A DNA stretch of 64,000 bases from Terriglobia bacterium (GTDB taxonomy: Bacteria; Acidobacteriota; Terriglobia; Bryobacterales; Bryobacteraceae): NCBI GenBank assembly GCA_021325235.1, contig JAJPHN010000014.1:62001-126000 (forward strand), read 5' to 3'. Within the stretch, counting starts at the first letter, position 1. Every line of letters starts with the position of its first letter. A program made the position numbers and the translations under genes. Of this stretch, positions 4,002 through 64,000 are shown one piece after another. The notes below the pieces were generated by a model that did no database searches, was not told the origin of the DNA, and saw only the letters and a list, made by a program, of their open reading frames with translations.

Positions 4002-5159
4002 GTGAGTGCCGTTGCGACCCCCTCCTCCGCCCAGGAAATAGCGGAGCTGCTCAGGGACACCGCGGGCCAGTCGCGCGCTATTTCAATAGCCGGTAATCAC
4101 AGCAAGCGCTTGATGGGCGGCCCGTGTCTTCCCGCAGATGTAACGATTTCAACCGCAAGGCTCAGCCGCATCCTGCAATACGAGCCGAACGATCTCACGA
4201 TCAGCGTAGAAGCGGGCGTGCGCTGGAGCGAGCTGGAACGCACACTCGCCAGGAACCGTCAGCGCATCGCCCTCGATCCACCGTTTGCTGCGGAGGCGAC
4301 CGTGGGCGGAGTCGTCGCCAGCAACTCGAGCGGCCCGCTGCGGAAACAATTCGGCACGGCGCGCGATCTGGTGATCGGTATGCAATTCGCCACGCTCGAA
4401 GGCAAGCTGGTGCGGACCGGCGGCATGGTGGTGAAGAACGTCGCGGGTCTCGACATGGGCAAGCTGCTGATCGGCAGCTTCGGGACGCTGGCGGTGATCA
4501 CGTCGGTGAATTTCCGGCTGCACCCCTTGCCCGAAGACACGCGCACTTTTGTCTTGTCGTTTGCCGATTCGGATGCGGCGCTCACGCGCTGTTCCGCCCT
4601 GCGCGAAAGCATGCTGCGGCCGCACACGATGGATCTCATCGGACCGGTTTTTGCGGCACGCTTCGGACTGCGCGGGTACCTGCTCGCGTTGCAGGCGGGT
4701 GGAAGCCGGCGTGTGCTCGAGCGTTATGGGCGCGAACTCGCCGGGAGTGCCATCCTCGCGGGTGCCGAAGAGCAGAGCTTCTGGAAACAGGTGCGCGAGG
4801 CTCCGGCTGAGTTTCTGAAGCGCCAGCCGGCGGGACTGGTGCTGCGTATTGCTACGCCGCTCAGCGAAATGGACCGGCTGCTGCGGCTCGCCTCGGGAGC
4901 GGCCATTGCGCGGGCGGGGAACGGGATTGCATACATCTATCTGAGCGGGCCCGGAGCACTTGCTTCGCTCTCGCGGGCGATCAAAGAACGCGGCTGGACG
5001 AGCGTGATCGAGTATGCCGCGCCGGACTTTCGCGGGAAAGGCGAGCTGTGGCCGTTGACGCCCGGCGGCGAGAGCGCGTTTGCCATGATGAAAAGCGTCA
5101 AACACATGTTCGATCCGCAGAATCTGCTGAACCGGTCGCGTCTGTATGGCCGCATCTGA
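4002..5159 (+). CDS. glcE: Glycolate oxidase FAD-binding subunit GlcE
   Basis: A 385-residue protein with an N-terminal PCMH-type FAD-binding domain (about 5-180; ATVGGVVASNSSGP and KNVAGLDMGKLLIGSFGT are characteristic). Its C-terminal segment ends in the FDPQNLLNRSRLYG phrase common to GlcD/GlcE proteins. With GlcD and GlcF it forms the membrane-associated glycolate dehydrogenase that oxidises glycolate to glyoxylate. GlcF follows with a 14-base overlap, so the two are translationally coupled. GlcD is absent from this window and must be encoded elsewhere if the complex is functional. The start is GTG at 4002. Confidence 0.9.
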   Translation: MSAVATPSSAQEIAELLRDTAGQSRAISIAGNHSKRLMGGPCLPADVTISTARLSRILQYEPNDLTISVEAGVRWSELERTLARNRQRIALDPPFAAEATVGGVVASNSSGPLRKQFGTARDLVIGMQFATLEGKLVRTGGMVVKNVAGLDMGKLLIGSFGTLAVITSVNFRLHPLPEDTRTFVLSFADSDAALTRCSALRESMLRPHTMDLIGPVFAARFGLRGYLLALQAGGSRRVLERYGRELAGSAILAGAEEQSFWKQVREAPAEFLKRQPAGLVLRIATPLSEMDRLLRLASGAAIARAGNGIAYIYLSGPGALASLSRAIKERGWTSVIEYAAPDFRGKGELWPLTPGGESAFAMMKSVKHMFDPQNLLNRSRLYGRI

Positions 5160-6453
5160 AGTTGCGCCGCGGCGTACAGCGGCCGGACCGGCGCAGGCCG
5201 ATCTCGATAAATGCGTGCACTGCGGCCTGTGTCTGAATGCCTGCCCGACCTATCGCGAGCTGGGCGTCGAAATGGACTCGCCGCGTGGGCGCATCTACCA
5301 GATGAACCAGGTTGCGGCGGGCGCGCCCATGACGCCGGGTTATGTGGAGCATCTTGATCTCTGCCTGGCGTGCCGCGCTTGTGAAACGGCCTGCCCATCG
5401 GGTGTTCCGTACGGCCGGATGATCGAAGCGGCGCGCGCGGAAATTCGCAAACGGCAGAAGATCACCCTCGGAGGGCGCATCCTGCGCTACCTGATCTTCG
5501 AACGGCTGCTGCCCTCGCGTATTGCGCTGCAGATCGCGGGAGCCGGTCTGTACGCTTACCAGGCAAGCGGATTGCAAAAAGTTCTGCGCGCAAGCGGCGT
5601 CCTCAAGCTGCTTGGACGCGTGGCCGATATCGAAGCGCTGTCGCCCAGTGCCGAAGTGCCGTTCTTCTACTCAAAGATCGGCAAGATATTCGCGCCTGTG
5701 GGCCAACGGCGCTACCGCGTCGCGTTTCTGAGCGGCTGCATTGCGAACGTTGCCTTCGCCCGGCTGAATGAAGCGACGGTGCGCGTGCTGCAGCGCAACG
5801 GCTGCGAAGTGGTGATACCGGCAGCCCAGAACTGCTGCGGGGCGCTGCACGTGCATTCGGGGCTGGAGGAGCAGGCGCGTGCGCTGGCGCGGCGCAACAT
5901 CGATGCGGTACTCGGCGGGAATTTTGATGCGATCCTTACCAACGCGGCCGGCTGCGGCTCCACGCTGAAAGAGTACGATCATCTGCTGGCTGATGAGGCC
6001 GGGTATGCCGAACGTGCGCGAGAGTTCCGCCGCAGAATGCGCGACGTGAACGAATTCCTGGCGTCCATCGGATTAAATCCTGAGCTGGGCCGTCTCGACG
6101 CGGTCGCAACGTATCAGGATTCGTGCCATCTGGCCCACGGGCAGCAGATTCGCAGCGCTCCTCGCCAGCTTCTCCAAGCGATTCCGGGATTGAAGCTGCG
6201 CGAGATGCGGCTGGCGGATGGATGCTGCGGCAGTGCGGGCATCTACAACCTCGTCCACAACGATATGGCCATGCAGATTCTGGAGAAAAAGATGGCCGAC
6301 GTGAATGCAACGGGTGCCTCGCTCATTGTCACTTCCAATCCGGGATGCATGCTGCAGCTGGCCGCGGGCGCGCGGCTTTATGGAAGCGGCCAGCGAGTGC
6401 TGCATGTGGTCGAAGTGCTCGACGAGAGCTATCGCGCGGCGCAGGCTGCCTAA
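5146..6453 (+). CDS. glcF: Glycolate oxidase iron-sulfur subunit GlcF
   Basis: A 435-residue electron-transfer subunit of glycolate dehydrogenase. Two 4Fe-4S motifs are intact: C23-C26-C29-C33 (CVHCGLCLNACP) and C73-C76-C79-C83 (CLACRACETACP). Two CCG domains follow, with NCCGALHVHSG and DGCCGSAGIY motifs, as in GlcF, LutA and heterodisulfide-reductase-like proteins. The ATG at 5146 lies inside the end of glcE, so the pair forms one operon. The convergent GAF gene begins 8 bases after the stop. Confidence 0.93.
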   Translation: MAASEVAPRRTAAGPAQADLDKCVHCGLCLNACPTYRELGVEMDSPRGRIYQMNQVAAGAPMTPGYVEHLDLCLACRACETACPSGVPYGRMIEAARAEIRKRQKITLGGRILRYLIFERLLPSRIALQIAGAGLYAYQASGLQKVLRASGVLKLLGRVADIEALSPSAEVPFFYSKIGKIFAPVGQRRYRVAFLSGCIANVAFARLNEATVRVLQRNGCEVVIPAAQNCCGALHVHSGLEEQARALARRNIDAVLGGNFDAILTNAAGCGSTLKEYDHLLADEAGYAERAREFRRRMRDVNEFLASIGLNPELGRLDAVATYQDSCHLAHGQQIRSAPRQLLQAIPGLKLREMRLADGCCGSAGIYNLVHNDMAMQILEKKMADVNATGASLIVTSNPGCMLQLAAGARLYGSGQRVLHVVEVLDESYRAAQAA

Positions 6454-51830: not shown

Positions 51831-52501
51831 GCTTGATCTTGAACATTGTAGAGGAGTGCCCTTGCGCCCGTGCTTAGCGTGCGGTCCTCGATCCGCCGCA
51901 GGAAGCGATGCTGCATCGCTTCTCGCGCGAATCTCTCGCTCGAGAGCGTACCGGTAAAAAGAAGTCGCAGCGGCCGCGGATGCTCCCGATACGACTCCCC
52001 GACTCGCTCCAGAAGCATTCGAAGAGCAGCGCCCGAGAGCGGGTTGAAAAGAAATATCAGCGTCGTATCCCGCGGGATCGAATATTCGAGCGCGTTGGCA
52101 TTCACGATTTCCACCTCACCGCAAACGGTTTTCTGCCGAATTCGAGCAACGTTCTGGCGGGCGAGCGCGCAAAGCTCGGAAGAAATCTCAACCCCAATGA
52201 CTCTGCGGAAGGGATGCATCGCCGCCACACAAACCGCCCGTCCCATCCCGGAGCCAACATCGAGGAACACGTCGTCGCGCGAAACGGATGCGAGCGCGAG
52301 CGATTCATCCAGATCGCGATAACTGACGGGCTGGTAGTGAACGAAATCGGGCGAGCCCGTATCCGGCGCATTTACACTCGAAGTGGCGATCCCGAAGCTC
52401 CGGTCGCGGGAACCGTCGAGCAGGCGATCGAGTGCCCAGGTGATCGTAGCGCCCGGCCCGGCGCGCAAACGAAAAAACAGTTCCGCCGCGAGTTCGCGCA
52501 T
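51827..52501 (-). CDS. Class I SAM-dependent methyltransferase (first of two in the operon)
   Basis: 224 residues from the ATG at 52501, which shares one base with the preceding stop; a GTG at 52504 is the alternative. The SAM-binding core is DVFLDVGSGMGRAVCVAA (motif I), then VIGVEISSELCALARQN and LIFLFNPLSG. The fold resembles DOT1-like or generic small-molecule methyltransferases, and the substrate is not evident. It lies between a membrane glycosyltransferase and an ABC exporter, so a glycan or glycolipid acceptor is likely. Confidence 0.82.
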   Translation of the reverse strand: MRELAAELFFRLRAGPGATITWALDRLLDGSRDRSFGIATSSVNAPDTGSPDFVHYQPVSYRDLDESLALASVSRDDVFLDVGSGMGRAVCVAAMHPFRRVIGVEISSELCALARQNVARIRQKTVCGEVEIVNANALEYSIPRDTTLIFLFNPLSGAALRMLLERVGESYREHPRPLRLLFTGTLSSERFAREAMQHRFLRRIEDRTLSTGARALLYNVQDQA

Positions 52502-54162
52502 CACGGCTGCCCTTCGCTCAGGCGCGGGGGTGTGTTGTCGGGCTCGAGATAAACAACCTTGCGGTCCGGATAGTAGCCGATGAGCTGCCGGTCGTCTTGC
52601 GGGCCCAGATCGCGCGCAAACACGATGCGTGTGCTATCAATGGAGGCCGCGTTCCAGACCCATTCGTCCTGAAAAATGTGGTGCGGAGAATAGTGTACGA
52701 AGACGAGCAGTTTGCCCGGGATACGCGCGAGCTGATCGGCCACAAACACCCGCCGTTGCGCGGAGCTCGGATGAGTGATCGCGTCCCAGGTCTCGTACCG
52801 GAGCAGCGGATGCAGGTTGCCGGGCCGTTCAAAAAGATGAAGGCTGTACCAGAGCGCGAACTCCGCCACGCAAAGAAGCAGCAGCACGCGAGCCACCTGC
52901 GCGCCGACTGCTTCGCCGCGGATCTCGATTTGCGAAATGCGCCGCAATCCGGCAACCGCCACCAGCAGGAACAGACACGTAACCGCCGCCAGGTAATGCG
53001 CCAGGAGATACGGAAACAGGTTTGTACCCAGAGCGAACACGGCCAGCGAAGCGGCAGCCCATTGATGCACCCGGTTGCGCAAAGTGAAAAGAAAGGCGAA
53101 CAAAGCCAGGTAGAGCGGCGGCAGGAAGAAGAAGCGGTAGTCGCGCACGCGGTACTCGAGCCGGAGAAGAAAGTGCGAAACGGAATCCCGGTCTGGTCCG
53201 TGCATGAGCAGTTGGGAACGATACTCGAGGTCCTGCTCGCGGGTAAGCGGAACGTGCGGTGTAGCCGGCTTCTCGATCGTGAGCGTGGTCGGGACGCCGT
53301 ATTGGTACTGGCTCAATGCCTCCGGTAAATTACCAAACGAACCCGTTACGGCCTTGTTGTGCAGGAGCATCAGAATCACGGCTGGCGCGAGTGCGGTCGA
53401 AGCCAAAGCAAGCGCGCGGGGGCTAAGCCGCTGCTTTGAAAACGCAAAAAAGAGGCAAACTGTTGTGAACAGCAGCAGCGATTCGAATGGACGCGTAAGC
53501 AGATGAAGTCCGAGCCCCGCGCCGAGTAAAAGAGGGATTGGCTTCGTTTTTTCAAGCCGGGGCAGGGCACCGAAAACCAGACATCCGACCGCCGCGGGGA
53601 GCGCCCCTCCCCAATAGCAGTTCATCCACAGGCAGAGCGGGCCGAACTGAATAACGGCGAGCACGCCTCCCGCCAGCGCCCAGACCGGCGGCACATAGGC
53701 GCGGAGCATCCAGTACGAAAGGCTGCAGAGCGCGCCGGTGGCGATTAGAACTCCGGTCCAGGCAAAGCCCGAAATCGCGCGGCCAAAGGCGAGCATGAGT
53801 CCCTGGCCGAGGGGGTAAATGGAGCTGTAGGTCGGCTGCTGGAGTACAAAAAACGTCTCGAAAAACTGGTGAAGCGCATGGGGCGGATTTGCCAGCCGGA
53901 AATGCAGCAAGGTATCCGCGACAAGCAGATGGCTGAACTCGTCGTAGAAGTTCGGAACCGGAACCGGATGGTCCGGCAGCAGCGCGAGACGGAGAAGAAT
54001 TGGCGTAACGAACAGCAGAATCATTATGAGTTGGGTTCGTTCCGCAAAAACGCGGACCCGTGCGCGCAGAGCCGGGGTCCAGAGAAAAGCGAAGATAACG
54101 AGAACGGCCGCGAGCCAGACTTCCAGCCAGTCGGCAGGCCCGAACGTATTGTTGACGGGCAT
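52501..54162 (-). CDS. GT39/mannosyltransferase-like polytopic membrane protein, copy 1
   Basis: 553 residues with about ten membrane helices and a ~110-residue extracytoplasmic C-terminal domain. After the first helices an acidic loop NFYDEFSHLLVADT supplies the Asp-Glu pair typical of polyprenyl-phosphate-sugar transferases (GT-C fold). A long loop follows with LANPPHALHQFFETFF and PTYSSIYPLGQG. The same loop (LANPPHPLSQFFEAVF, PTYSSIYPPGQG) and the same C-terminal EPDNTPPRL-type ending occur in the gene at 54864, so these are paralogues. It probably transfers a sugar from a lipid carrier on the outer face. Confidence 0.78.
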   Translation of the reverse strand: MPVNNTFGPADWLEVWLAAVLVIFAFLWTPALRARVRVFAERTQLIMILLFVTPILLRLALLPDHPVPVPNFYDEFSHLLVADTLLHFRLANPPHALHQFFETFFVLQQPTYSSIYPLGQGLMLAFGRAISGFAWTGVLIATGALCSLSYWMLRAYVPPVWALAGGVLAVIQFGPLCLWMNCYWGGALPAAVGCLVFGALPRLEKTKPIPLLLGAGLGLHLLTRPFESLLLFTTVCLFFAFSKQRLSPRALALASTALAPAVILMLLHNKAVTGSFGNLPEALSQYQYGVPTTLTIEKPATPHVPLTREQDLEYRSQLLMHGPDRDSVSHFLLRLEYRVRDYRFFFLPPLYLALFAFLFTLRNRVHQWAAASLAVFALGTNLFPYLLAHYLAAVTCLFLLVAVAGLRRISQIEIRGEAVGAQVARVLLLLCVAEFALWYSLHLFERPGNLHPLLRYETWDAITHPSSAQRRVFVADQLARIPGKLLVFVHYSPHHIFQDEWVWNAASIDSTRIVFARDLGPQDDRQLIGYYPDRKVVYLEPDNTPPRLSEGQP

Positions 54163-54168
54163 CGCCGC

Positions 54169-54867
54169 TCAGGTCTCTTTCACAGCAATCGCAATCAGCG
54201 AGGTGGCTGGCCAGGGCAGGTAGCGATCGACGCGCCGGACGAACGGGACCACGGCATTGAACAGAAGCAGTTGCGTGTTGCTGAGCGTTCGACGGCGAAG
54301 AATACGCGAATTGAGGATCCAGCCGGGCAGGGTAGCGCGATTGAACTGCAGCATGCGGTCGAGCCGGAAACCTGCAGCCCGCATTTTCCCTCTCAGCTCG
54401 CGCCTCGAATAGCGGCGCTGGTGTTCGAGCACCTCGTCGAGCGACCCGAACGCGATTTTGCACTGCGGCACAAGCACGATGGTGAGGCCGCCCGGACGAA
54501 GGGAATCGTGGATATTGCGCAAAGTGGCTTCGTCGTCCGGGATGTGCTCGAGAACATTCAGCGCGATGACGGTATCGAAGCGCTCGCGGAGGCTCTCGAA
54601 GGCAGATGGATCCGCGGCATCGGAAAAGAGCCTGTCCACGTTCGTCTGTTGCGGCAAACGCCGCTGCAGCGCTTCCAGGTGCTCTTCTTCGGTATCGAGC
54701 GCAACGTAGTGATCCGCAAGCGGGCTGAGGAATTCGGTGAGATTACCGATTCCGGCGCCGATTTCGAGAACGTTGCCGCGAACAAACGGCGCAATCGTAT
54801 CCGCCATCCAGCGGTTGAAGTGCCGGGCCCGCGCCATCTGGAACAGCATTTCTGTTCCGGGGTTCAT
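54169..54867 (-). CDS. Class I SAM-dependent methyltransferase (second of two)
   Basis: 232 residues from the ATG at 54867, which overlaps the upstream glycosyltransferase stop by 4 bases. The frame is open further up, but the longer form would lie within that gene. Motif I is VLEIGAGIGNLTEFL, followed by HYVALDTEEEHLEAL and a VIALNVLEHIPDDEATL stretch characteristic of UbiE/COQ5-like (Methyltransf_11/12) enzymes. It ends with a hydrophobic C-terminus (LPWPATSLIAIAVKET). It is unlike the methyltransferase at 51827 in detail, so the pair is not a simple duplication. Confidence 0.85.
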   Translation of the reverse strand: MNPGTEMLFQMARARHFNRWMADTIAPFVRGNVLEIGAGIGNLTEFLSPLADHYVALDTEEEHLEALQRRLPQQTNVDRLFSDAADPSAFESLRERFDTVIALNVLEHIPDDEATLRNIHDSLRPGGLTIVLVPQCKIAFGSLDEVLEHQRRYSRRELRGKMRAAGFRLDRMLQFNRATLPGWILNSRILRRRTLSNTQLLLFNAVVPFVRRVDRYLPWPATSLIAIAVKET

Positions 54868-56522
54868 TGCGGCGGATAGGGCGTCAGGTGTGGAGGATGG
54901 AAATCGGGTTCGAGAAGCCATTTCTTGCGGGAAGGGAAGTAGCGCTCCAATTTTTGATTTTCGTCTGCGCCCAGATCGAGAGCCCAGATTATGCGCGCTC
55001 GACCGATATCGGCTGCGTTTGCGATCCACTCGCCAAAACGATGCTGCCGGGTGTACCGAACGAATACGAGTTGATCACCCGGCGCGGCGGCGAGGTCACG
55101 TGCGATGGAGATGCGTCCTTCGGGATCGCCATGGTTGACGAAATCCCAGGTCTCATACGTTGTCACCGCGAGAAGAGCGGGATGATTCGAAAGATGGATG
55201 GCGTACCAGAAAACAAAATGCGCGCCACACAGGCAGATCAGGAGCACGGCTGCGAGGGGATTGCGGCGGTGCAGCGCGCACATTCCGCAAAGCGCCCATA
55301 ACAGGAATAGGCACGCCACCGCCGCGATGTACTGGGTGTGGAAGTAGGGATAGAAATTTGTACCGAAAAAAAAGAAGCCTAGAACGGTAAGCACAAACAG
55401 GAAAATTGTGCGCCGGCGAAAGGCAAAGGGCAGCGCAAGAAAAAGCGGCGCCAGCAGGAAGAAGCGGGCGTATGGAAGACGTTCGAGAAGCCGCGAGACG
55501 TAGCGGGCCGGCGAATCGGCAGCAGATCCATGAATCGCGGCTTGCGCGCGGTAATCGAGTTCCTGCTCCGGTGTGAGCGGGTTGTGTGGAACGGGATTGG
55601 GCTCGAAGGTGAAGCTGGCCGGTACACCGTATTGATAACGGCTCAGCTGGTAAGGGAGTTGGGTCCAGCCTCCCGTGACGGCTTTGTTTTGCGCCAGGAG
55701 GAGGCCGAATGCGAGTAGCGGAAGCGGGGCCGCAAAGATAAGCATGCGCCGGTGTTCCGGTCTCGTCAAACAGACTGCATAGGCGAAAACACAAACGCAG
55801 AGCAGGACGAATTCAAAAGGACGGGTGAGTAACTGCAGTGACAGGCCGAGACCGAGCAACCAGACCGCGCGGCGCGAGCCGAGTCTTGGAAGCGCGCCAA
55901 AGACGAGGCATCCGGCACAGGCAGAGAGCGAGCCGCCCCAGTAGGAATTGGTCCATGGATTGAGCGGCCCGAATTGAACAACAGCGAGCAAACCTCCGGC
56001 GAGTGCCCAGATTGCCGGAATCCAGGCGCGCAGCATCCAATAGCAGAGCGCAGGCAGCGCGGCCGAAACGAGCAGAACACCCGCCCAGTAGCTGCCGAAG
56101 AGGGTTCGTCCCAGAGCGAGTGCGATGCCTTGCCCGGGTGGATAAATCGAGCTGTAAGTGGGGTGCTGGAGGATAAAGACAGCTTCGAAGAACTGAGAAA
56201 GCGGGTGGGGCGGATTCGCGAGACGCAGGTGACGCAGCGTGTCCGCCAGGAGAATGTAGCTGAAGTCGTCGGCACCGGCGGGAATCGGGACAGGTGCCGC
56301 TGCGAGCAAAGCGAGGCGAAGTGCCAGGCCGAGCGCAAACAGAGTGAGCATGGCGACGGCTGGAGACTGAGCGAGCTTCCGCGCATACGGCTGTAGCGCT
56401 ACGCGCGCGAATAGCAAAATCGAGAGAAGAAGCGCCAGCGAAAAAACGACAAAATCGGCTGCTCCGAAACCGATCGGATTGCGCAAGGGCAGGAATGAGC
56501 GGAAAAGATCGAAAAGATACAC
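54864..56522 (-). CDS. GT39/mannosyltransferase-like polytopic membrane protein, copy 2
   Basis: 552 residues from a GTG at 56522. That start gives the same length as its paralogue at 52501 (553); the frame stays open to a TTG at 56561. It has about ten helices, the acidic loop ADDFSYILLADT, the long loop with PTYSSIYPPGQG, and an extracytoplasmic C-terminal domain with WALDLGADENQKLERYFPSRK and LEPDFHPPHL. It is the first gene of a six-gene overlapping operon that runs down to 48696. It is divergent from the copper monooxygenase cluster across 82 bases. Confidence 0.78.
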   Translation of the reverse strand: MYLFDLFRSFLPLRNPIGFGAADFVVFSLALLLSILLFARVALQPYARKLAQSPAVAMLTLFALGLALRLALLAAAPVPIPAGADDFSYILLADTLRHLRLANPPHPLSQFFEAVFILQHPTYSSIYPPGQGIALALGRTLFGSYWAGVLLVSAALPALCYWMLRAWIPAIWALAGGLLAVVQFGPLNPWTNSYWGGSLSACAGCLVFGALPRLGSRRAVWLLGLGLSLQLLTRPFEFVLLCVCVFAYAVCLTRPEHRRMLIFAAPLPLLAFGLLLAQNKAVTGGWTQLPYQLSRYQYGVPASFTFEPNPVPHNPLTPEQELDYRAQAAIHGSAADSPARYVSRLLERLPYARFFLLAPLFLALPFAFRRRTIFLFVLTVLGFFFFGTNFYPYFHTQYIAAVACLFLLWALCGMCALHRRNPLAAVLLICLCGAHFVFWYAIHLSNHPALLAVTTYETWDFVNHGDPEGRISIARDLAAAPGDQLVFVRYTRQHRFGEWIANAADIGRARIIWALDLGADENQKLERYFPSRKKWLLEPDFHPPHLTPYPPQ

Positions 56523-56604
56523 GGTTTTGCAGTCCGAAACGCATGGCGGAGAGGCCGCCAAACTCGATATACTCGGTTTCAGGCGCCCCGGGAGCGCCGG
56601 TCAC

Positions 56605-57957
56605 GTGAGAACAGCTTTACTCTGGCTCGTGCCTGCCTTTGCCGGCGTGGCGCTCGCAGCCGATCCGACCGTCACATTCACGCACGATGTGGCTCCGCTA
56701 CTTTATCAGCATTGTACGAGGTGTCACCATCCGAACGACGTGGCTCCGATGTCGCTGATTACATACAAAGAAGCGCGGCCGTGGGCGGCAGCGATGAAAG
56801 AGGCGGTGGTCACGCGCAAAATGCCGCCCTGGCAGGCAGATCCGCATTATGGCCATTTTGCGAACGATCCGCGGCTCAGCGACGCCGAGATTCAAACGAT
56901 TGTGAAATGGGTGCAGGAAGGTGCTCCGGAAGGAAATCGGGCCGATCTTCCGGCCGCGCCGAGTTATCCGGATGGCTGGAAAATTGGCAAGCCCGACGCG
57001 ATTATCCCGATCCCGGCGGATTATACGGTGAAACCGCACGATCCGGATCAATATGTGTATCTGCGAGTGCAGACCAATTTCCCGGAAGACCGCTGGGTGA
57101 GCGCCGTAGAGCTACGGCCGGGCAATCGCCGCATTGTGCACCACGCGCATGTGTACCTGTATGTTCCGCCGAAGCCGAAGACCGCAAGCGACACGGCGAA
57201 GAAAGACGATAAACCGCAGCCGATGATCAAGCGCGACGGTACGAACCACATCAATCCGCTGATGCCGGTGGTGGATGACGGGTGCTCGCTTCCTCACGGC
57301 GGAAACGCATTCGGCGATCCGCAGGAGAATAATATTCTTGGCTCGTATCTGCCGGGTAAAGCTCCCGATGTGTTCCCGGAAGGATATGCGCGCAAGATCC
57401 CCAAAGGCGCCGTGCTGGAATTCCAGATCCACTATAACTCGCAGACCATCACCGATACGGAAACGGATCGCACCAGCGTTGGCGTTGTGTTTGCCAAGGA
57501 GCCGCCAAAGCAGCAATTGCGGCGCGTCGACGTTTCGAATCACTTTTTCAAAATTCCGGCGGGCGACCCGGATCACTTAGTTACCGCCTGCTATGTCTTT
57601 CCCGAGAATGTGGATCTGATGTCCTATACCGCGCACATGCATCTGCGGGGAAAAGATATGAAGTTCATCGCGATCCATCCGGACGGACACCAGGAAGTAC
57701 TCGCTTCCGTGCCGAACTACGATTTCAACTGGCAGAACGAGTATCAGCTCGCGCAGCCGGTGCCGATCGAAGCGGGTACGAAAATCAAGATTGTTGCGCA
57801 TTTCGATAACTCGGCGAATAACAAGTACAATCCCGATCCCACGAAGGACATTCGCTGGGGCGAGCCGAGTACGGAAGAGATGATGGACGGCTGGTTCGAA
57901 TTTATTCTGCCCCAAAAGCCGGCGGAAACCGCGTCGATCGCGCACGGAGCCAAATGA
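56605..57957 (+). CDS. Exported haem-c / PHM-type copper monooxygenase fusion, copy 1
   Basis: 450 residues from the GTG at 56605, followed directly by a signal peptide (about 1-19, ending ALAA). A haem-c domain comes first: C37-T-R-C40-H41, with a conserved MPPW at 73-76 whose Met is a candidate axial ligand. A copper type II, ascorbate-dependent-type monooxygenase follows, with all six ligands expected from rat PHM: H179, H180 and H276 (FQIHYN) for CuH, and H344, H346 (AHMHLRG) and M426 (TEEMMDG) for CuM. It should hydroxylate an activated C-H next to nitrogen in the periplasm. Substrate is unknown. The stop overlaps copy 2 (ATGA). Confidence 0.88.
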   Translation: MRTALLWLVPAFAGVALAADPTVTFTHDVAPLLYQHCTRCHHPNDVAPMSLITYKEARPWAAAMKEAVVTRKMPPWQADPHYGHFANDPRLSDAEIQTIVKWVQEGAPEGNRADLPAAPSYPDGWKIGKPDAIIPIPADYTVKPHDPDQYVYLRVQTNFPEDRWVSAVELRPGNRRIVHHAHVYLYVPPKPKTASDTAKKDDKPQPMIKRDGTNHINPLMPVVDDGCSLPHGGNAFGDPQENNILGSYLPGKAPDVFPEGYARKIPKGAVLEFQIHYNSQTITDTETDRTSVGVVFAKEPPKQQLRRVDVSNHFFKIPAGDPDHLVTACYVFPENVDLMSYTAHMHLRGKDMKFIAIHPDGHQEVLASVPNYDFNWQNEYQLAQPVPIEAGTKIKIVAHFDNSANNKYNPDPTKDIRWGEPSTEEMMDGWFEFILPQKPAETASIAHGAK

Positions 57958-59297
57958 AGAAAGTACTACTGGCGGCCACGCTCGCAAGCTCGGTATATGC
58001 GGCGCCGGCGGTGACGTTCAATAAGGACGTAGCGCCGATTCTGTACAAGAACTGCGTTGTCTGCCATCATCCGAACGACATCGCGCCGATGTCGCTGCTC
58101 ACTTACAAAGAGGCGCGTCCATGGGCGGCGGCGATACGGCAGGCGGTTGTTACTCGGACCATGCCGCCCTGGCATGCCGATCCGAATGTGGGACATTACC
58201 TGAACGATCCGCGCTTGTCGAACGATGAAATCGCAACGATCGAGGCGTGGGTGAAAGCCGGCTCACCGGAAGGCGACCCGAAGGACCTGCCGCCCGCGCC
58301 TGTTTTCAAGGACGGCTGGCACATCAAGCCGGATGTGGTGCTGACGATTCCGGAGACGACCGTTGCCGCAGCCAATCAGGACGATTACGAGTACATCTAC
58401 GTTCCGACCAATTTCACGGAAGACAAATGGGTGCAGGCGGCCGAAGTGGTGCCGGGCGACCGTCGGGTGGTGCATCACGCAACGGTGAGTGTAGTGGCGG
58501 CCAAAGATGTTCCGAAGCTCGAAAATCCGAACGCACACGCGGAAGAAGATCAGTTCCATTTCCGCACGGGCAAGGTGAACCATTTGAAAATGGACGCCCC
58601 GGTGTCGGATGACGGGTGCGTCGCTTCGAATGATCCGAGAGTGAAGGACTGGTCCGGGGGGTATCTGAACTATGTGCCGGCGATCTATCTTCCGGGGCAT
58701 CTGGCCGAGACGCGTCCGCCCGGTTATGCGCTGAAGATTCCGGCGGGTTCGTATCTGCAGTTCCAGGTGCATTACAGCAATCGCCTGGGCGAAACGGTGA
58801 AAGACCGGACGAGTATCGGGCTGGTGTTTGCGAAAGAGCCGGTTGAGCACGAAGTAGCGCAGTACGAGATCTGGAACAACTGGTTTCTGATTCCGCCCGG
58901 CGATGGAAACCATAAAGTTACTTCGTGCTACACGCTCCCTAAGGATGTTGAGGCAGTGGCGTACACGGCGCACATGCACTTTCGCGGAAAGAGTATGCAG
59001 ACCGAAGCCATTTATCCGGATGGCCGGCATGAACTGCTCTTCAGCGTTCCTAAGTACGATTTCCGCTGGCAGGAGACTTATTTCCTCAAGCAGCATTTCA
59101 TCCTCCCCAAAGGTACAAAGCTGATTACGACTGCTTACTTCGATAACTCGGCGAATAATCCGCTGAATCCGGATCCATCGAAAGCGATTCGCTGGGGCGA
59201 GCCGAGTAATGAAGAAATGATGGGCTTCTGGCTGGCGTTCGCGGATGTTGATACGACGAAGCAGAGTGCGCAGGCAGCCAGGCACCCGGAGAGATAA
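57954..59297 (+). CDS. Exported haem-c / PHM-type copper monooxygenase fusion, copy 2
   Basis: A 447-residue paralogue of the preceding gene, with signal peptide about 1-16. Haem motif C34-V-V-C37-H38, MPPW at 70-73. Copper ligands are H174, H175, H273, H340, H342 and M422, all present. The two copies differ most in the loop after the CuH histidines (HHAHVYLY in copy 1, HHATVSVV here) and in the ~40 residues that follow it, the likely substrate-facing part. They could hydroxylate different substrates or act as a pair. It starts 4 bases inside copy 1, and the PAL-like gene begins 2 bases after its stop. Confidence 0.88.
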   Translation: MKKVLLAATLASSVYAAPAVTFNKDVAPILYKNCVVCHHPNDIAPMSLLTYKEARPWAAAIRQAVVTRTMPPWHADPNVGHYLNDPRLSNDEIATIEAWVKAGSPEGDPKDLPPAPVFKDGWHIKPDVVLTIPETTVAAANQDDYEYIYVPTNFTEDKWVQAAEVVPGDRRVVHHATVSVVAAKDVPKLENPNAHAEEDQFHFRTGKVNHLKMDAPVSDDGCVASNDPRVKDWSGGYLNYVPAIYLPGHLAETRPPGYALKIPAGSYLQFQVHYSNRLGETVKDRTSIGLVFAKEPVEHEVAQYEIWNNWFLIPPGDGNHKVTSCYTLPKDVEAVAYTAHMHFRGKSMQTEAIYPDGRHELLFSVPKYDFRWQETYFLKQHFILPKGTKLITTAYFDNSANNPLNPDPSKAIRWGEPSNEEMMGFWLAFADVDTTKQSAQAARHPER

Positions 59298-59299
59298 GT

Positions 59300-60355
59300 A
59301 TGAAACGATTGCAATCGACTTCGAGACGCCATTTTGTGCGGCAGATCGGAACGGGACTCGCGGCGCCGCTGATCCTCGGAGCTACCGATAAGGCCGGAAC
59401 AAAGAAGCCCGTGCTGGGTTCGGGCGAGCATACCTACGAAGTCACGCACGACTGGGGCGAACTGCCGGCCGATATTCAATACGGCAACACGCACGGAGTC
59501 TGTGAAGACTCGCAGGGGCGCATCTACATTCACCACACGGTCTGGGCGACAAGCGAGAAGCCGGATTCGATGGTGGTGTTCGATGGCGACGGCAAGTTCA
59601 TCAAGAGCTGGGGCCGCGAATTCAAAGGCGGCGCGCATGGGCTGACCATCCGGCGCGAGGGCAGCACGGAGTATTTGTATCTGAGCGATATCCAGCGTGG
59701 GCTAGTCGTCAAGACAACGCTTGATGGCGAGGAAGTCTTCACGCTCGGTTATCCGAAAGAGTCCGAACCGTATGCGAAACCCGGACCGGACGGCAAGCCG
59801 ATCAAATACAGCCCGACCAACCTTGCGATCGCACCCAATGGAGATATCTACGTAGGCGACGGTTACGGCTCAAGTTACATCAATCAGTACGATTCGAGTG
59901 GCAAACATATCCGCACCTTCGGGGGGCCCGGAAAAGACGCCGGCCAGCTGCTTTGTCCGCACGGCATTATGGTCGATACGCGCGCCAGCGAGCCAATTCT
60001 CGTGATCGCCGATCGCAGCAACAAGCGGATTCAGCGCTTCACGCTGGATGGCAAGCACGTGGATTTCATCTACGGTACGCCTGCGCCGTGTAATTTCAAC
60101 GTTTATAAGAACGGCGACATGGTTGTCCCGGATCTATTTGCGCGCGTGACCATCATGGATCGCGACAACAAGATCATCGAAAATCTGGGCGACGATTCCG
60201 GCAGCAACTATATGGAAACGCGCAAGCTCACGCGTGACCACTTCAAGCCGGGTAAATTCGTCTGCCCGCACGGCGCCTGTTTCGATCACGAAGGCAACAT
60301 TTACGTAGTCGAGTGGGTGGAAGTCGGGAGAGTGAGCAAGCTGCGCAAGGTTTAG
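59300..60355 (+). CDS. Tat-exported NHL beta-propeller, peptidyl-alpha-hydroxyglycine lyase (PAL)-like
   Basis: 351 residues. A twin-arginine signal (SRRHFVRQIGTGLAAPLILG, about 8-27) leads to a six-bladed NHL propeller. The order of motifs follows animal PAL: HGLTI with H113, SPTNLAIAPNGDIYVGDGY with Y189, GQLLCPHGIMVD with H221, VIADRSNKRIQRF, and a final CPHG with H324. In rat PAL the three zinc ligands and the active-site Tyr fall in the corresponding phrases. PAL cleaves the hydroxyglycine made by PHM to an amide plus glyoxylate. The Asp next to the last zinc His in rat PAL is Gly here, so activity is unproven. It directly follows two PHM-like genes. Confidence 0.8.
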   Translation: MKRLQSTSRRHFVRQIGTGLAAPLILGATDKAGTKKPVLGSGEHTYEVTHDWGELPADIQYGNTHGVCEDSQGRIYIHHTVWATSEKPDSMVVFDGDGKFIKSWGREFKGGAHGLTIRREGSTEYLYLSDIQRGLVVKTTLDGEEVFTLGYPKESEPYAKPGPDGKPIKYSPTNLAIAPNGDIYVGDGYGSSYINQYDSSGKHIRTFGGPGKDAGQLLCPHGIMVDTRASEPILVIADRSNKRIQRFTLDGKHVDFIYGTPAPCNFNVYKNGDMVVPDLFARVTIMDRDNKIIENLGDDSGSNYMETRKLTRDHFKPGKFVCPHGACFDHEGNIYVVEWVEVGRVSKLRKV

Positions 60356-60357
60356 TT

Positions 60358-61218
60358 TTGGGATTGCAGTTCACCCGGCGTAGTTGTTTGGCGCTGCTCG
60401 CAACCTGCGCGTTTGGGCAGGACAAGAACGCGCCTCCTGACAAAGACTGGGTCTGTCCGATGGATCCGGATTACCGGTCCGATAAGCCCGGCTTTTGTCC
60501 AAAGTGCGGCATGAAGCTGGTGCTGGGCATCCCGGACCGGGTCGAGTATCCGCTTGAAATCTCGCACGCTCCCGATGTGCTGCGGCCAGGCGAAACGGCG
60601 CGGTTAACGCTGCGCGCGTATCGTCCCGGGACGCAGCAGATTGTGACACAGTTCGAGATCGTTCACGAGAAGCTGATCCATCTGTTTATCGTGAGCGAGA
60701 ACCTGTCGTATTTCGCGCATGTGCATCCGGTGGCGCAGCCCGACGGCTCGTTTACGCTCGATGTGAAGTTGCCGTATGGCGGGATGTACCGGCTGCTGGC
60801 GGATTTCTATCCGGCGGGAGCGGTGCCGCAGCTCGCGGTCGGTACATTATTCGTTGCCGGCGAGAGCACAAAGCCGCAGCTTGCGCCGGCGCTCGCTCCC
60901 TCGAAATCCGAAAACACAACAGCGAGCCTGCGCATGGATCCTGAGCAGCCGCTTGCCGGGTTGGAGACGAAGTTGTTTTTTTCGCTCGATCCCGCGGAGG
61001 GACTGCAGCCCTACCTCGGCGCCTGGGCGCACATGCTGGCAGCGAGCGAGGATCTGATCGACCTGCTGCATCTGCATCCTTTCCTGGCAGATGGGAGGGC
61101 GAGTCTGCAATTCAACGTGATTTTCCCGCGCGACGGCCTCTATCGCGTCTGGACACAAATCCAGCGGCAGAATGTGGTCAACACGTTTGTGTTCACGATC
61201 CCGGTAAAGGCGCTTTGA
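60358..61218 (+). CDS. Exported protein with heavy-metal-binding (HMBD) domain
   Basis: 286 residues from a TTG at 60358, two bases after the PAL-like stop; a TTG at 60364 is also possible. A signal peptide or lipoprotein signal (about 5-21, TRRSCLALLATCAFGQ) precedes an HMBD zinc/copper-binding motif, WVCPMDPDYRSDKPGFCPKCGMKL (about 31-54), of the kind seen in CusB- and CopA-related proteins. Two Ig-like/beta domains follow, with His-rich phrases (YFAHVHPVAQ, DLLHLHPFLADG). It may deliver copper to the PHM-like enzymes, which is inferred from position. It overlaps the convergent cytochrome gene by 26 bases. Confidence 0.75.
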   Translation: MGLQFTRRSCLALLATCAFGQDKNAPPDKDWVCPMDPDYRSDKPGFCPKCGMKLVLGIPDRVEYPLEISHAPDVLRPGETARLTLRAYRPGTQQIVTQFEIVHEKLIHLFIVSENLSYFAHVHPVAQPDGSFTLDVKLPYGGMYRLLADFYPAGAVPQLAVGTLFVAGESTKPQLAPALAPSKSENTTASLRMDPEQPLAGLETKLFFSLDPAEGLQPYLGAWAHMLAASEDLIDLLHLHPFLADGRASLQFNVIFPRDGLYRVWTQIQRQNVVNTFVFTIPVKAL

Positions 61219-61873
61219 TCGTTTCGAGCGTGTAACGCAGCGGCGCTGAGGCTTCGATCACGGCGCCGGCGGGGACCTCGATCGGCTTCTGAAACGTGAA
61301 CGTGTGCGCGAATTTCGGATCGTAGCGATATAGCCAGACCAGCGGCTCAACACGTCCGTCGGGCCAGCGCGCAACCACACGTGTGGATGCAACTTCGACA
61401 GTGGGCAGCGGACGAATACCGGCTAAGCGCAACGGCGAGCGCAGAGTGACGCGGGTATCGACCTGCAGCGCGTCTGCGAGCACAGGCTGCGCTGCTTGCC
61501 GCAGTGAAATTGGCGAGGTTGGCAATAGCTCGGGATTACCTTTCGGCGCGCCACCCACTACCCAGGCGGCGAGGATCAGAATGTCTTCCTGGCTCAGTCC
61601 GTTGTCGGGCGAAAGATTGCCGAAGCCTTTGACAGCACCCCACGGCGGCATGGCGCGGCTCAACACCTGTTCCTTGATCGAAACGGCCCAGGGACGCGCC
61701 TGTTCATAAGTCACCAGCGGGATCGATGCGTTCGCGCCATGACATGAGAGGCAATGACGGGCAAAGATGCGGGACACGTCGCGCGTGAACGTGAGATTCG
61801 TGGTGATGATGTCGTGGGCAGACAGAAGGCCGGTGGAGATCGATAGCGCGATCAGAAGCCGGCGCACGCTCAC
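61193..61873 (-). CDS. Exported c-type cytochrome related to the haem domain of the monooxygenases, copper core missing
   Basis: About 226 residues from a GTG at 61873 (GTG at 61867 possible), with a signal peptide ending LLSA. The N-terminal ~110 residues match the haem domains of the two monooxygenases: CLSCH, a YEQARPWA phrase and MPPW. The C-terminal ~95 residues resemble only the last strands of the monooxygenase C-domain ([16 protein letters not shown] and [13 protein letters not shown] against HPDGHQEVLASVPNYD and PIEAGTKIKIVA). The HH, HMH and EEMM copper motifs are absent. It looks like a shortened paralogue that keeps electron transfer only. Confidence 0.78.
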
Positions 61874-61887
61874 ATACGCTGTATAGC

Positions 61888-62643
61888 ATGCAGGCAACGA
61901 AGAAATCAGCATTGATTACGGGAGGCGGCAGCGGGATCGGTCAGGCCGTCGCAATTCGACTGGCGCAGGCGGGCTGGCGAGTCGCGATTGCGGGCAGGCG
62001 AGAGAGCGAGCTGGAAAAAACCCGCTCGCTGGCCGGCAACGAAGCCGAAGTGCTGGCGGTGCGCGCTGATGTGAGTGTGGCGGAAGAGGTGAATCAGCTT
62101 TTCGCGCGAACAAAAGAAAATTTCGACCGCCTTGACGTGCTTTTCAACAATGCCGGAATTGGCGGCCCACCCGTTCCACTGGACGAACTCGCGCTCGAGG
62201 ACTGGAACCAGGTGGTCAATGTGAATCTGACCGGAGCGTTCCTGTGCGCGCAGCACGCGATACGTCAAATGAAGCATCAGGATCCGCAGGGTGGACGTAT
62301 CATCAACAACGGCTCGATCTCGGCGCATGTTCCGCGGCCGAACTCCTCGGCGTACACGGCGACCAAACATGCGATTGCCGGATTGACAAAATCCATCTCG
62401 CTCGAAGGCCGCGCATTTAACATCGCCTGCAGCCAGATCGATATCGGCAATGCGGCGACCGAGATGAGCGAGCGCATGGCGAAAGGCGTTCTGCAGGCCA
62501 ACGGCACGATCGCGCAGGAACCGCGTATGAACCTGCAGCACGTCGCCGATGCGGTGCTCTATATGGCGGAGCTGCCGCTGGATGCCAACGTGCAATTTAT
62601 GACGCTGATGGCGACCAACATGCCTTTCATCGGCCGGGGCTGA
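61888..62643 (+). CDS. Short-chain dehydrogenase/reductase (SDR)
   Basis: 251 residues with a classical SDR layout: TGGGSGIG cofactor loop (11-18), NNAG (87-90), a catalytic Ser in NGSISAHV (143 or 145), and Y156/K160 in YTATKHA. It is NAD(P)-dependent; the absence of an acidic residue after the second strand (AIAGRRES) favours NADP. The substrate is unknown. It is divergent from the copper-less cytochrome with starts 14 bases apart. The FAD oxidoreductase begins 20 bases after its stop. Confidence 0.9.
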
Positions 62644-62662: not shown

Positions 62663-64000
62663 ATGCCGAACCGGTGCCCGCATCTGGACAAGCTGCTTGG
62701 AATGGGCGAGGAGATTTCCCGCCGTGATTTTCTTGATGGGGCGCTCCTCGCGTCGGGTGCGGCGCTGCTCGCGGGAACGGCACCCTCGCAACTGGCTGCG
62801 CAGACCGGATGGGCGGGTTACACGGGCGAGGGCGATTACCAGGGGAGCGCCGGCAATGCCGAAGATGTTGTGCGGAGCGCGCATGCGGTGCGCGACGGCA
62901 AGTTCGATCAGGAACCAGTATCCGTCGTGGATACGAAGGAAGTTTTCGATTGCGTCATCGTCGGCGGAGGCTTTGCCGGATTGTCCGCAGCGCTGTTTTT
63001 CAAGCAGCGAACGCCTGCCTCGCGCAACTGCCTCGTGCTCGACAACGCGCGCGTCTTCGGCGGCGTTGCGAAGCGGAATGAATTTGTCGTTGAGGGACAC
63101 CGGCTGTACGCTCCGCAGGCGTCGGTGCATTTTCAGCCCCCGTATCCGGACAGCTTTCTGAAAGGTGTCTACGATTCGTTCGGGCTCGATTGGGATGCGT
63201 TCAAGAATTACCAGACGTGGGCCGGACCGGGACCTGATATGGATCTTTCGCGCAGCCCCTATCGCGTAGAAGGCTATCCGCCGCGCGCTACGTACGGCTT
63301 TTACTTCGGTGCAAAGTATGGCAAGACCCCTGGCATCTGGGTGAAGGATCCCTGGCGGGATGGCCTCGCGCGTACGCCGTTTTCTGAACAGACGCGCCGC
63401 GAGTTCATCTCCTGGCATGAGCAACGGCACGCCACAGCGCCGCTCGTGTACGATTTTCCAGGCGACTCCGTTTCGCGCGAGCTCGACAGCATGACGCTGG
63501 AAGATTACTGGGTTCGCTTATACGGGATCAGCCGGGAGACGATTCGTCTGATCACGGCCTCCGACACTGCTTCCGGATTCGGGCTCGGACCAGATGCGCT
63601 TTCGGCATGGCTTGAATACGAATGGTCGCGCAATGTGCCGACGGTCGACGATTCCATGGCAACGGGCCTTCAGATGTTCCCGGGCGGCAACTGCGGCATG
63701 AACCGCATGATCGTAAAGACTCTGATTCCGGAGGCGATCGAAGGCCCGCGCGGGATGGAGACGACGTGGAAGAATCGGATCGATTTCGATGCGCTCGATA
63801 CGCCCGGCTCGCGCGTCCGCCTGCGCCTCGGATCTACTGCTGTGCGTGTCGAACATGAAGGCGAGCCGCGCCAGGCGGAATTTGTCCGGATCACCTACAC
63901 GCGTGGCGGCAAGGTGTATCAGCTGAAGGCAAAAACAGTCGTGATGGCGGGCGGCGGATGGATCACCAAACACGTCGTGCGCGATCTGAATCCGGAGCGG
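62663..64000 (+). CDS. Tat-exported FAD-dependent oxidoreductase, spermidine dehydrogenase-like (3' truncated by window edge)
   Basis: 446 residues are visible, open to the last base of the window. A twin-arginine signal (SRRDFLDGALLASGAALLAG, about 19-38) is followed by a GxGxxG FAD fold, VIVGGGFAGLSAALFF. The VLDNARVFGGVAKRNEF phrase is typical of the Tat-exported NAD(P)/FAD oxidoreductases related to spermidine dehydrogenase and flavin amine oxidases. Two later stretches (MFPGGNCGMNRMIVKTL and VVMAGGGWITKHVV) belong to the substrate and second FAD regions. The C-terminus lies outside. Substrate identity as a polyamine is not certain. Confidence 0.8.
   Translation, partial: MPNRCPHLDKLLGMGEEISRRDFLDGALLASGAALLAGTAPSQLAAQTGWAGYTGEGDYQGSAGNAEDVVRSAHAVRDGKFDQEPVSVVDTKEVFDCVIVGGGFAGLSAALFFKQRTPASRNCLVLDNARVFGGVAKRNEFVVEGHRLYAPQASVHFQPPYPDSFLKGVYDSFGLDWDAFKNYQTWAGPGPDMDLSRSPYRVEGYPPRATYGFYFGAKYGKTPGIWVKDPWRDGLARTPFSEQTRREFISWHEQRHATAPLVYDFPGDSVSRELDSMTLEDYWVRLYGISRETIRLITASDTASGFGLGPDALSAWLEYEWSRNVPTVDDSMATGLQMFPGGNCGMNRMIVKTLIPEAIEGPRGMETTWKNRIDFDALDTPGSRVRLRLGSTAVRVEHEGEPRQAEFVRITYTRGGKVYQLKAKTVVMAGGGWITKHVVRDLNPER

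Follow-up and report, generated by a model that had tools for sequence, protein, structure and literature searches.

We analyzed a 64,000-nucleotide stretch of DNA (the window) from a Terriglobia bacterium (Bryobacteraceae, Acidobacteriota; assembly GCA_021325235.1, 60 contigs, 5.03 Mb; contig JAJPHN010000014.1, positions 62,001 to 126,000) and found in it an operon in which two genes for copper monooxygenases resembling peptidylglycine alpha-hydroxylating monooxygenase (PHM), P0001 and P0002, precede a gene for a propeller protein resembling peptidyl-alpha-hydroxyglycine lyase (PAL), P0003 (Table 1). The pair made up of a P0002-type PHM gene and the propeller gene recurs, adjacent and on the same strand, in several distant acidobacterial families. 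The linkage of PHM-like and propeller genes is real, yet minor. The explanation that we prefer, though tentatively, is a pair of periplasmic enzymes for oxidative cleavage in two steps, encoded by the operon together with helper proteins: a haem-fed copper hydroxylase would work with a zinc-type lyase on a substrate other than that of PAM, the animal amidating enzyme.

A pattern scan of contigs, which covered close relatives only, recovered 50 loci with relatives of P0003; at 2 of these the contig ended at the gene, and 48 had at least 700 bases upstream. The propeller gene had a same-strand PHM-like gene upstream at 8 of the 48 loci (within 600 bases at 7; at L039 a second propeller copy lies between), while the other 40 had none just upstream, including L025, where PHM-like genes lie nearby on the opposite strand. 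Six propeller genes (L017, L019, L024, L030, L035, and L043) were downstream of PSCyt1/PSCyt2/PSD1 and DUF1501-type genes (Pfam on L019 and L030), and the PAL-like propeller may work for their products as well. Neither kind of neighbor was found just upstream at the remaining 34 loci. The loci and genome sets overlap, as some contig loci and some of the genomes (G numbers) are the same organisms with identical rows; the PHM-like rows of L013 and G242, for instance, are identical, and G242 is listed under the window's genus.

For the family set (81 genomes), we fetched the best 29 of the 63 listed propeller places outside the operon's own genome. A PHM-like gene within ∼1.5 kb upstream was found at none of the 28 assessable loci among these 29, and 2 of the 28 followed DUF1501. 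At E 1e-30, a hand count gave 41 family genomes with both genes, 9 with the propeller only, 13 with the PHM-like gene only, and 18 with neither (Fisher P = 2.9e-4 for co-occurrence, uncorrected for kinship); 9 of the 50 propeller-bearing genomes had no PHM-like match at that threshold. The class set comprised 349 genomes at least 85% complete, and scores were computed for the top 4 or 5 candidates of a first look at each genome. P0002-type genes (E 1e-165) were present in 16 of these, propellers (E 1e-110) in 65, and both in 8 (P = 0.0036, uncorrected for kinship), and the propeller was directly downstream of the P0002-type gene in 5 of the 16 (G000, G242, G221, G268, and G349). A first-pass annotation of this DNA, made from the sequence alone, had made linkage of the two genes in related genomes a test of its reading. 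The outcome is mixed: the pair recurs in several families, but linkage is not a general rule, given the 40 of 48 and 28 of 28 loci that lack a PHM-like gene upstream.

A PHM tree of 60 rows contained 13 PAL-linked rows (10 without three duplicates), and all of these fell together with P0002 in one clade of 25 (SH-aLRT, 100). PAL linkage was seen in none of the 35 rows outside this clade, P0001 included, two of which had <700 bases downstream. The figure of 13/25 is inflated because eight linked rows entered the set by way of the propeller; 5/16 is the unbiased figure. Linkage state changed 6 times on the PHM tree and 4 times on the propeller tree, the latter against a shuffled mean of 8.6, and clustering this tight arose in 0 of 500 label shuffles for both trees (uncorrected for kinship). 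PHM-linked rows on the propeller tree made up one clade of six, with three more scattered among close unlinked rows, and linkage is patchy on both trees.

The same analyses separate P0001 from the pair. No propeller was found within ∼1.5 kb of the nearest relatives of P0001, and at the other 15 P0002-type loci, the fetched flanks of up to 1.5 kb held no PHM-like gene upstream; among the 16 genomes, only this one has a P0001-type copy beside a P0002-type gene. Elsewhere, PHM-like copies stand in tandem with no propeller (L119 of G063, and L025). We therefore rejected the idea, put forward in the first-pass annotation, that two PHM copies and the PAL-like gene form one conserved unit, as the PAL-linked clade does not include P0001, whose closest kin have no propeller nearby.

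The predicted fold of P0002 is the PHM double jelly-roll with both subdomains, and structure comparison matched it to PHM and to dopamine beta-hydroxylase (DBH). Residues H174, H175, H273, H340, H342, and M422, which supply the letters of the three CuH histidines and of the His, His, and Met of CuM, were invariant in a 12-row family alignment. All five ligand histidines aligned with DBH motifs, with the methionine outside that alignment, and the rat PHM ligands (H107, H108, and H172 and His 242, His 244, and Met 314; PMC6123673) all have counterparts in P0002. We infer that P0002 binds copper at two PHM-type sites, and its earlier identification as a PHM-type copper monooxygenase is borne out by fold and ligands alike. 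P0001 carries the same six ligand letters; the two proteins are 51% identical and belong to separate subfamilies. PF03712 scored above its cut-off in both (24.2 bits against a cut-off of 23 for P0001) and was detected at E 0.01 in 11 of the 12 family rows. Unlike rat PHM, neither protein had a reported match to PF01082, the PHM N-terminal model, in the Pfam scan. A search of P0001 against PDB sequences gave no match at E 1, and a 13-row profile matched DBH.

Each of the two copper monooxygenases has an N-terminal c-type cytochrome motif, which in P0001 is CTRCH followed later by MPPW. The cysteines and histidine of the P0002 motif (Table 1) were kept in at least 90% of the 12 rows, and M70 of its MPPW, likely the second haem ligand, was invariant. 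PF00034 and PF13442 gave weak, below-cut-off scores for the cytochrome part of these proteins (PF00034, 17.5 bits in P0001 against a cut-off of 21.3), and residues 31 to 80 of P0002 were modeled at low confidence (block pLDDT, 40 to 53). The cytochrome c motif distinguishes P0002 from both rat PHM (1PHM/5WJA) and human DBH (4ZEL); DBH presumably also contains a DOMON domain, which the Pfam scan did not report in P0002. At L025 (8216-10819, minus strand), a single open reading frame (ORF) of 868 amino acids contains two tandem cytochrome-copper monooxygenase units; two PHM-like proteins are naturally fused here.

P0003 was predicted to be a six-bladed propeller, and its fold match to PAL tied with matches to TRIM/Thin NHL domains, so we did not accept the fold alone as proof of PAL identity. 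We take the PAL zinc site to consist of H585, H690, and H786, with Tyr654 as the base. P0003 keeps H113, Y189, H221, R239, and H324, and the positions of the three His, the Tyr, and the Arg were conserved in all 48 propeller rows. H113 and Y189 were matched to PAL letters by direct alignment, whereas H221 was placed from alignment end points on the assumption that the last columns are gap free, and H324 was placed by motif and spacing against the PAL piece. By these placements, P0003 has the letters of a PAL-type three-His site (H113, H221, and H324) and of its Tyr (Y189). The Arg of the PAL motif FHRGD, Arg533, which we take to be an active-site residue, aligned with T80 of P0003 (MAFFT --add and hhalign; an --addfragments run gave a gap there). 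This position was Thr in 44 of the 48 rows, P0003 included, and Arg in 2. The likeness to PAL noted in the first-pass annotation holds for the propeller fold, tied as it is with other NHL propellers, and for the His and Tyr positions, and it fails at the Arg533 position. P0003 further differs from PAL in being encoded by a separate gene, unfused to the hydroxylase, with a twin-arginine (Tat)-type signal. The two rows with Arg (HRT and HRS) were L054 and L055, from Planctomycetota, whose propellers may have an activity nearer to that of genuine PAL; neither propeller gene had a PHM-like frame beside it. A propeller subclade (L044, L045, L046, L048, L050, and L057) has an N-terminal stretch without a twin-arginine motif, and the cellular location of these proteins may differ.

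Table 1. Features of the operon and its downstream neighbor (window positions).
Feature	Position	Strand	Description
P0001	56605..57957	+	Exported; N-terminal c-type cytochrome motif and PHM/DBH-type copper monooxygenase
P0002	57954..59297	+	Exported cytochrome c-fused PHM/DBH-type copper monooxygenase; subfamily known beside propeller gene
P0002 haem c attachment motif	58053..58070	+	CVVCHH (C34, C37, H38)
P0003	59300..60355	+	Six-bladed NHL propeller with Tat signal, PAL-like
HMBD protein	60358..61218	+	Cys-rich heavy-metal-binding domain (CPMDPDYRSDKPGFCPKCGM); PF19335, 49.4 bits
Short exported CxxCH protein	61193..61912	-	PF13442, 25.8 bits, just below cut-off of 27

The first-pass annotation described the three ORFs with a 4-base overlap at the P0001/P0002 junction and a 2-base gap at the P0002/P0003 junction; the coordinates agree, and the description in part understated what is present. 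The start of the heavy-metal-binding domain (HMBD) gene, placed from the sequence, is a TTG 2 bases past the P0003 stop (Pfam frame, 60355-61218). The short CxxCH gene is convergent to the HMBD gene, with an overlap of 26 bases, and a gene resembling it was found near P0002-type operons in the fetched loci. An HMBD-motif gene follows P0002-type genes, with or without a propeller, in L013, L015, G008, G077, and G379 (Pfam on L013), and in the last three of these the order P0002-HMBD-cytochrome occurs without a propeller. In several genomes, the propeller is absent from between kept flanks. The P0002-type gene of G129 directly adjoins a gene that we take from its motif to be msrA-like, and in G221 and G268 the propeller sits between the two. 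In three f6 genomes (L140, L141, and L142; Pfam on L141), the gene after the P0002-type gene encodes an FG-GAP-type protein in place of the propeller, and in L134, from a G134-type genome, the P0002-type gene is followed by one for a Meth_synt_2 protein. Farther out, an ORF at 62663-64000, like an FAD-dependent oxidoreductase with a twin-arginine-like start, continues past the window end (its best NCBIfam match, to a PigB model, was weak and below the cut-off). Two ORFs on the minus strand (52501-54162 and 54864-56561), divergent from the operon, are alike and resemble membrane proteins, perhaps glycosyltransferases by their look.

In the reading that we prefer, P0002 would carry out step 1 as a PHM/DBH-type dicopper monooxygenase, hydroxylating a C-H bond as its fold and ligands suggest, with electrons coming from its own fused c-type cytochrome and not from ascorbate alone. 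In step 2, the three-His metal site and Tyr base of P0003 would cleave the bond beside the new hydroxyl (C-N or C-O), which would free an aldehyde or keto acid. Both proteins would act in the periplasm. If the haem-copper protein leaves by Sec and the lyase folds in the cytoplasm before leaving by Tat, the zinc of the lyase may be kept away from periplasmic copper. The HMBD protein could, as a guess, load the copper, and P0001 would be an additional monooxygenase of another subfamily, in this operon by happenstance.

The first-pass annotation had instead proposed that glycine-extended peptides or N-acylglycines are converted, first by PHM and next by PAL, into amides and glyoxylate. Such a pathway would account for the PHM fold of P0002, its counterparts of the rat ligands, the PAL-like residues, and the adjacency of the genes, yet it fits poorly with the residues expected to hold the substrate. 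In PHM, we take the glycine carboxylate to be bound by Arg240, Asn316, and Tyr318. Counted from the HxH and Met ligands, the corresponding places in P0002 are T338, G424, and W426, and Thr stands two places ahead of HxH in P0001 as well. The glycine-carboxylate residues thus appear not to be kept in P0002. Together with Thr80 at the PAL Arg533 position, where only the two planctomycete rows have Arg, these changes make it unlikely that a glycine-extended peptide is bound as in animal PAM, and we regard amidation as the least probable of the explanations considered. The glyoxylate link drawn from glcE/glcF-like ORFs (4002-6453) was dropped, as they lie ∼50 kb away, fall below NCBIfam cut-offs, and add nothing.

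A stronger competitor, though still a doubtful one, is that the copper protein acts alone and that the propeller is not its lyase but a general exported partner (for binding, as a scaffold, or as another enzyme) of varied redox operons. The tie with TRIM/Thin NHL domains is in keeping with this, as are the propellers that follow PSCyt/PSD1 and DUF1501-type genes, the 34 loci with neither these nor a PHM-like neighbor, and the FG-GAP-type protein that takes the propeller's place. A mere scaffold, however, is hard to reconcile with the presence of the PAL-site residues in all 48 rows, those without a PHM neighbor among them, and the adjacent pairs recovered so far all involve a single PHM subfamily. 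Chance neighborhood, in which genome drift brings together exported proteins of unrelated pathways, is improbable. Patchy linkage on both trees and a P0001 copy beside only 1 of 16 P0002-type genes would suit it, but against it stand the adjacency of the two genes on one strand in families far apart, the shared flanking genes at loci that lack the propeller, and the label shuffles (uncorrected for kinship).

Among known systems, the bacterial methylguanidine hydroxylase/lyase operon MgdH/MgdL is alike in that an oxygenase makes a hemiaminal that a dedicated lyase splits, and it differs in using a 2-oxoglutarate/Fe enzyme of guanidine use (PMC12508155). The authors, who compare the lyase of this pair with PAL, report no sequence homology between them (PMC12508155). 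This pair shows that bacteria do use a lyase dedicated to a hydroxylated intermediate. The planctomycete-specific PSCyt/PSD genes that precede some propellers encode haem proteins (PMC5615132), and in the one scanned locus, L019, they lack a copper monooxygenase domain. A PAM review lists animals, choanoflagellates, filastereans, green algae, dinoflagellates, and haptophytes, with no "bacteria" or "prokaryot" term found in its main text (PMC6529398), and PHM has been placed in eukaryotes (PMC8812541). No bacterial PHM/PAL operon was found among the matches listed from the openly licensed literature.

On a broader view, which is possible but which we would not press, a haem-wired PHM branch in soil bacteria and a Tat-exported PAL-type lyase would carry out periplasmic oxidative dealkylation of an environmental substrate, and this system might be a bacterial counterpart, or the origin, of the PHM and PAL modules of eukaryotes. 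P0002 and P0003 might then follow the two-step logic of animal amidation with an electron source and substrate of their own, a proposal that we hold with the same reserve. Bacterial operons that pair both folds would offer a simple system in which to study how hydroxylase and lyase were united, and a PHM with its own haem would bear on how PHM-type enzymes obtain two electrons. Since some Bryobacteraceae genomes have up to 22 matched copper-protein stretches (one gene often accounting for two stretches), this chemistry may matter for soil carbon turnover.
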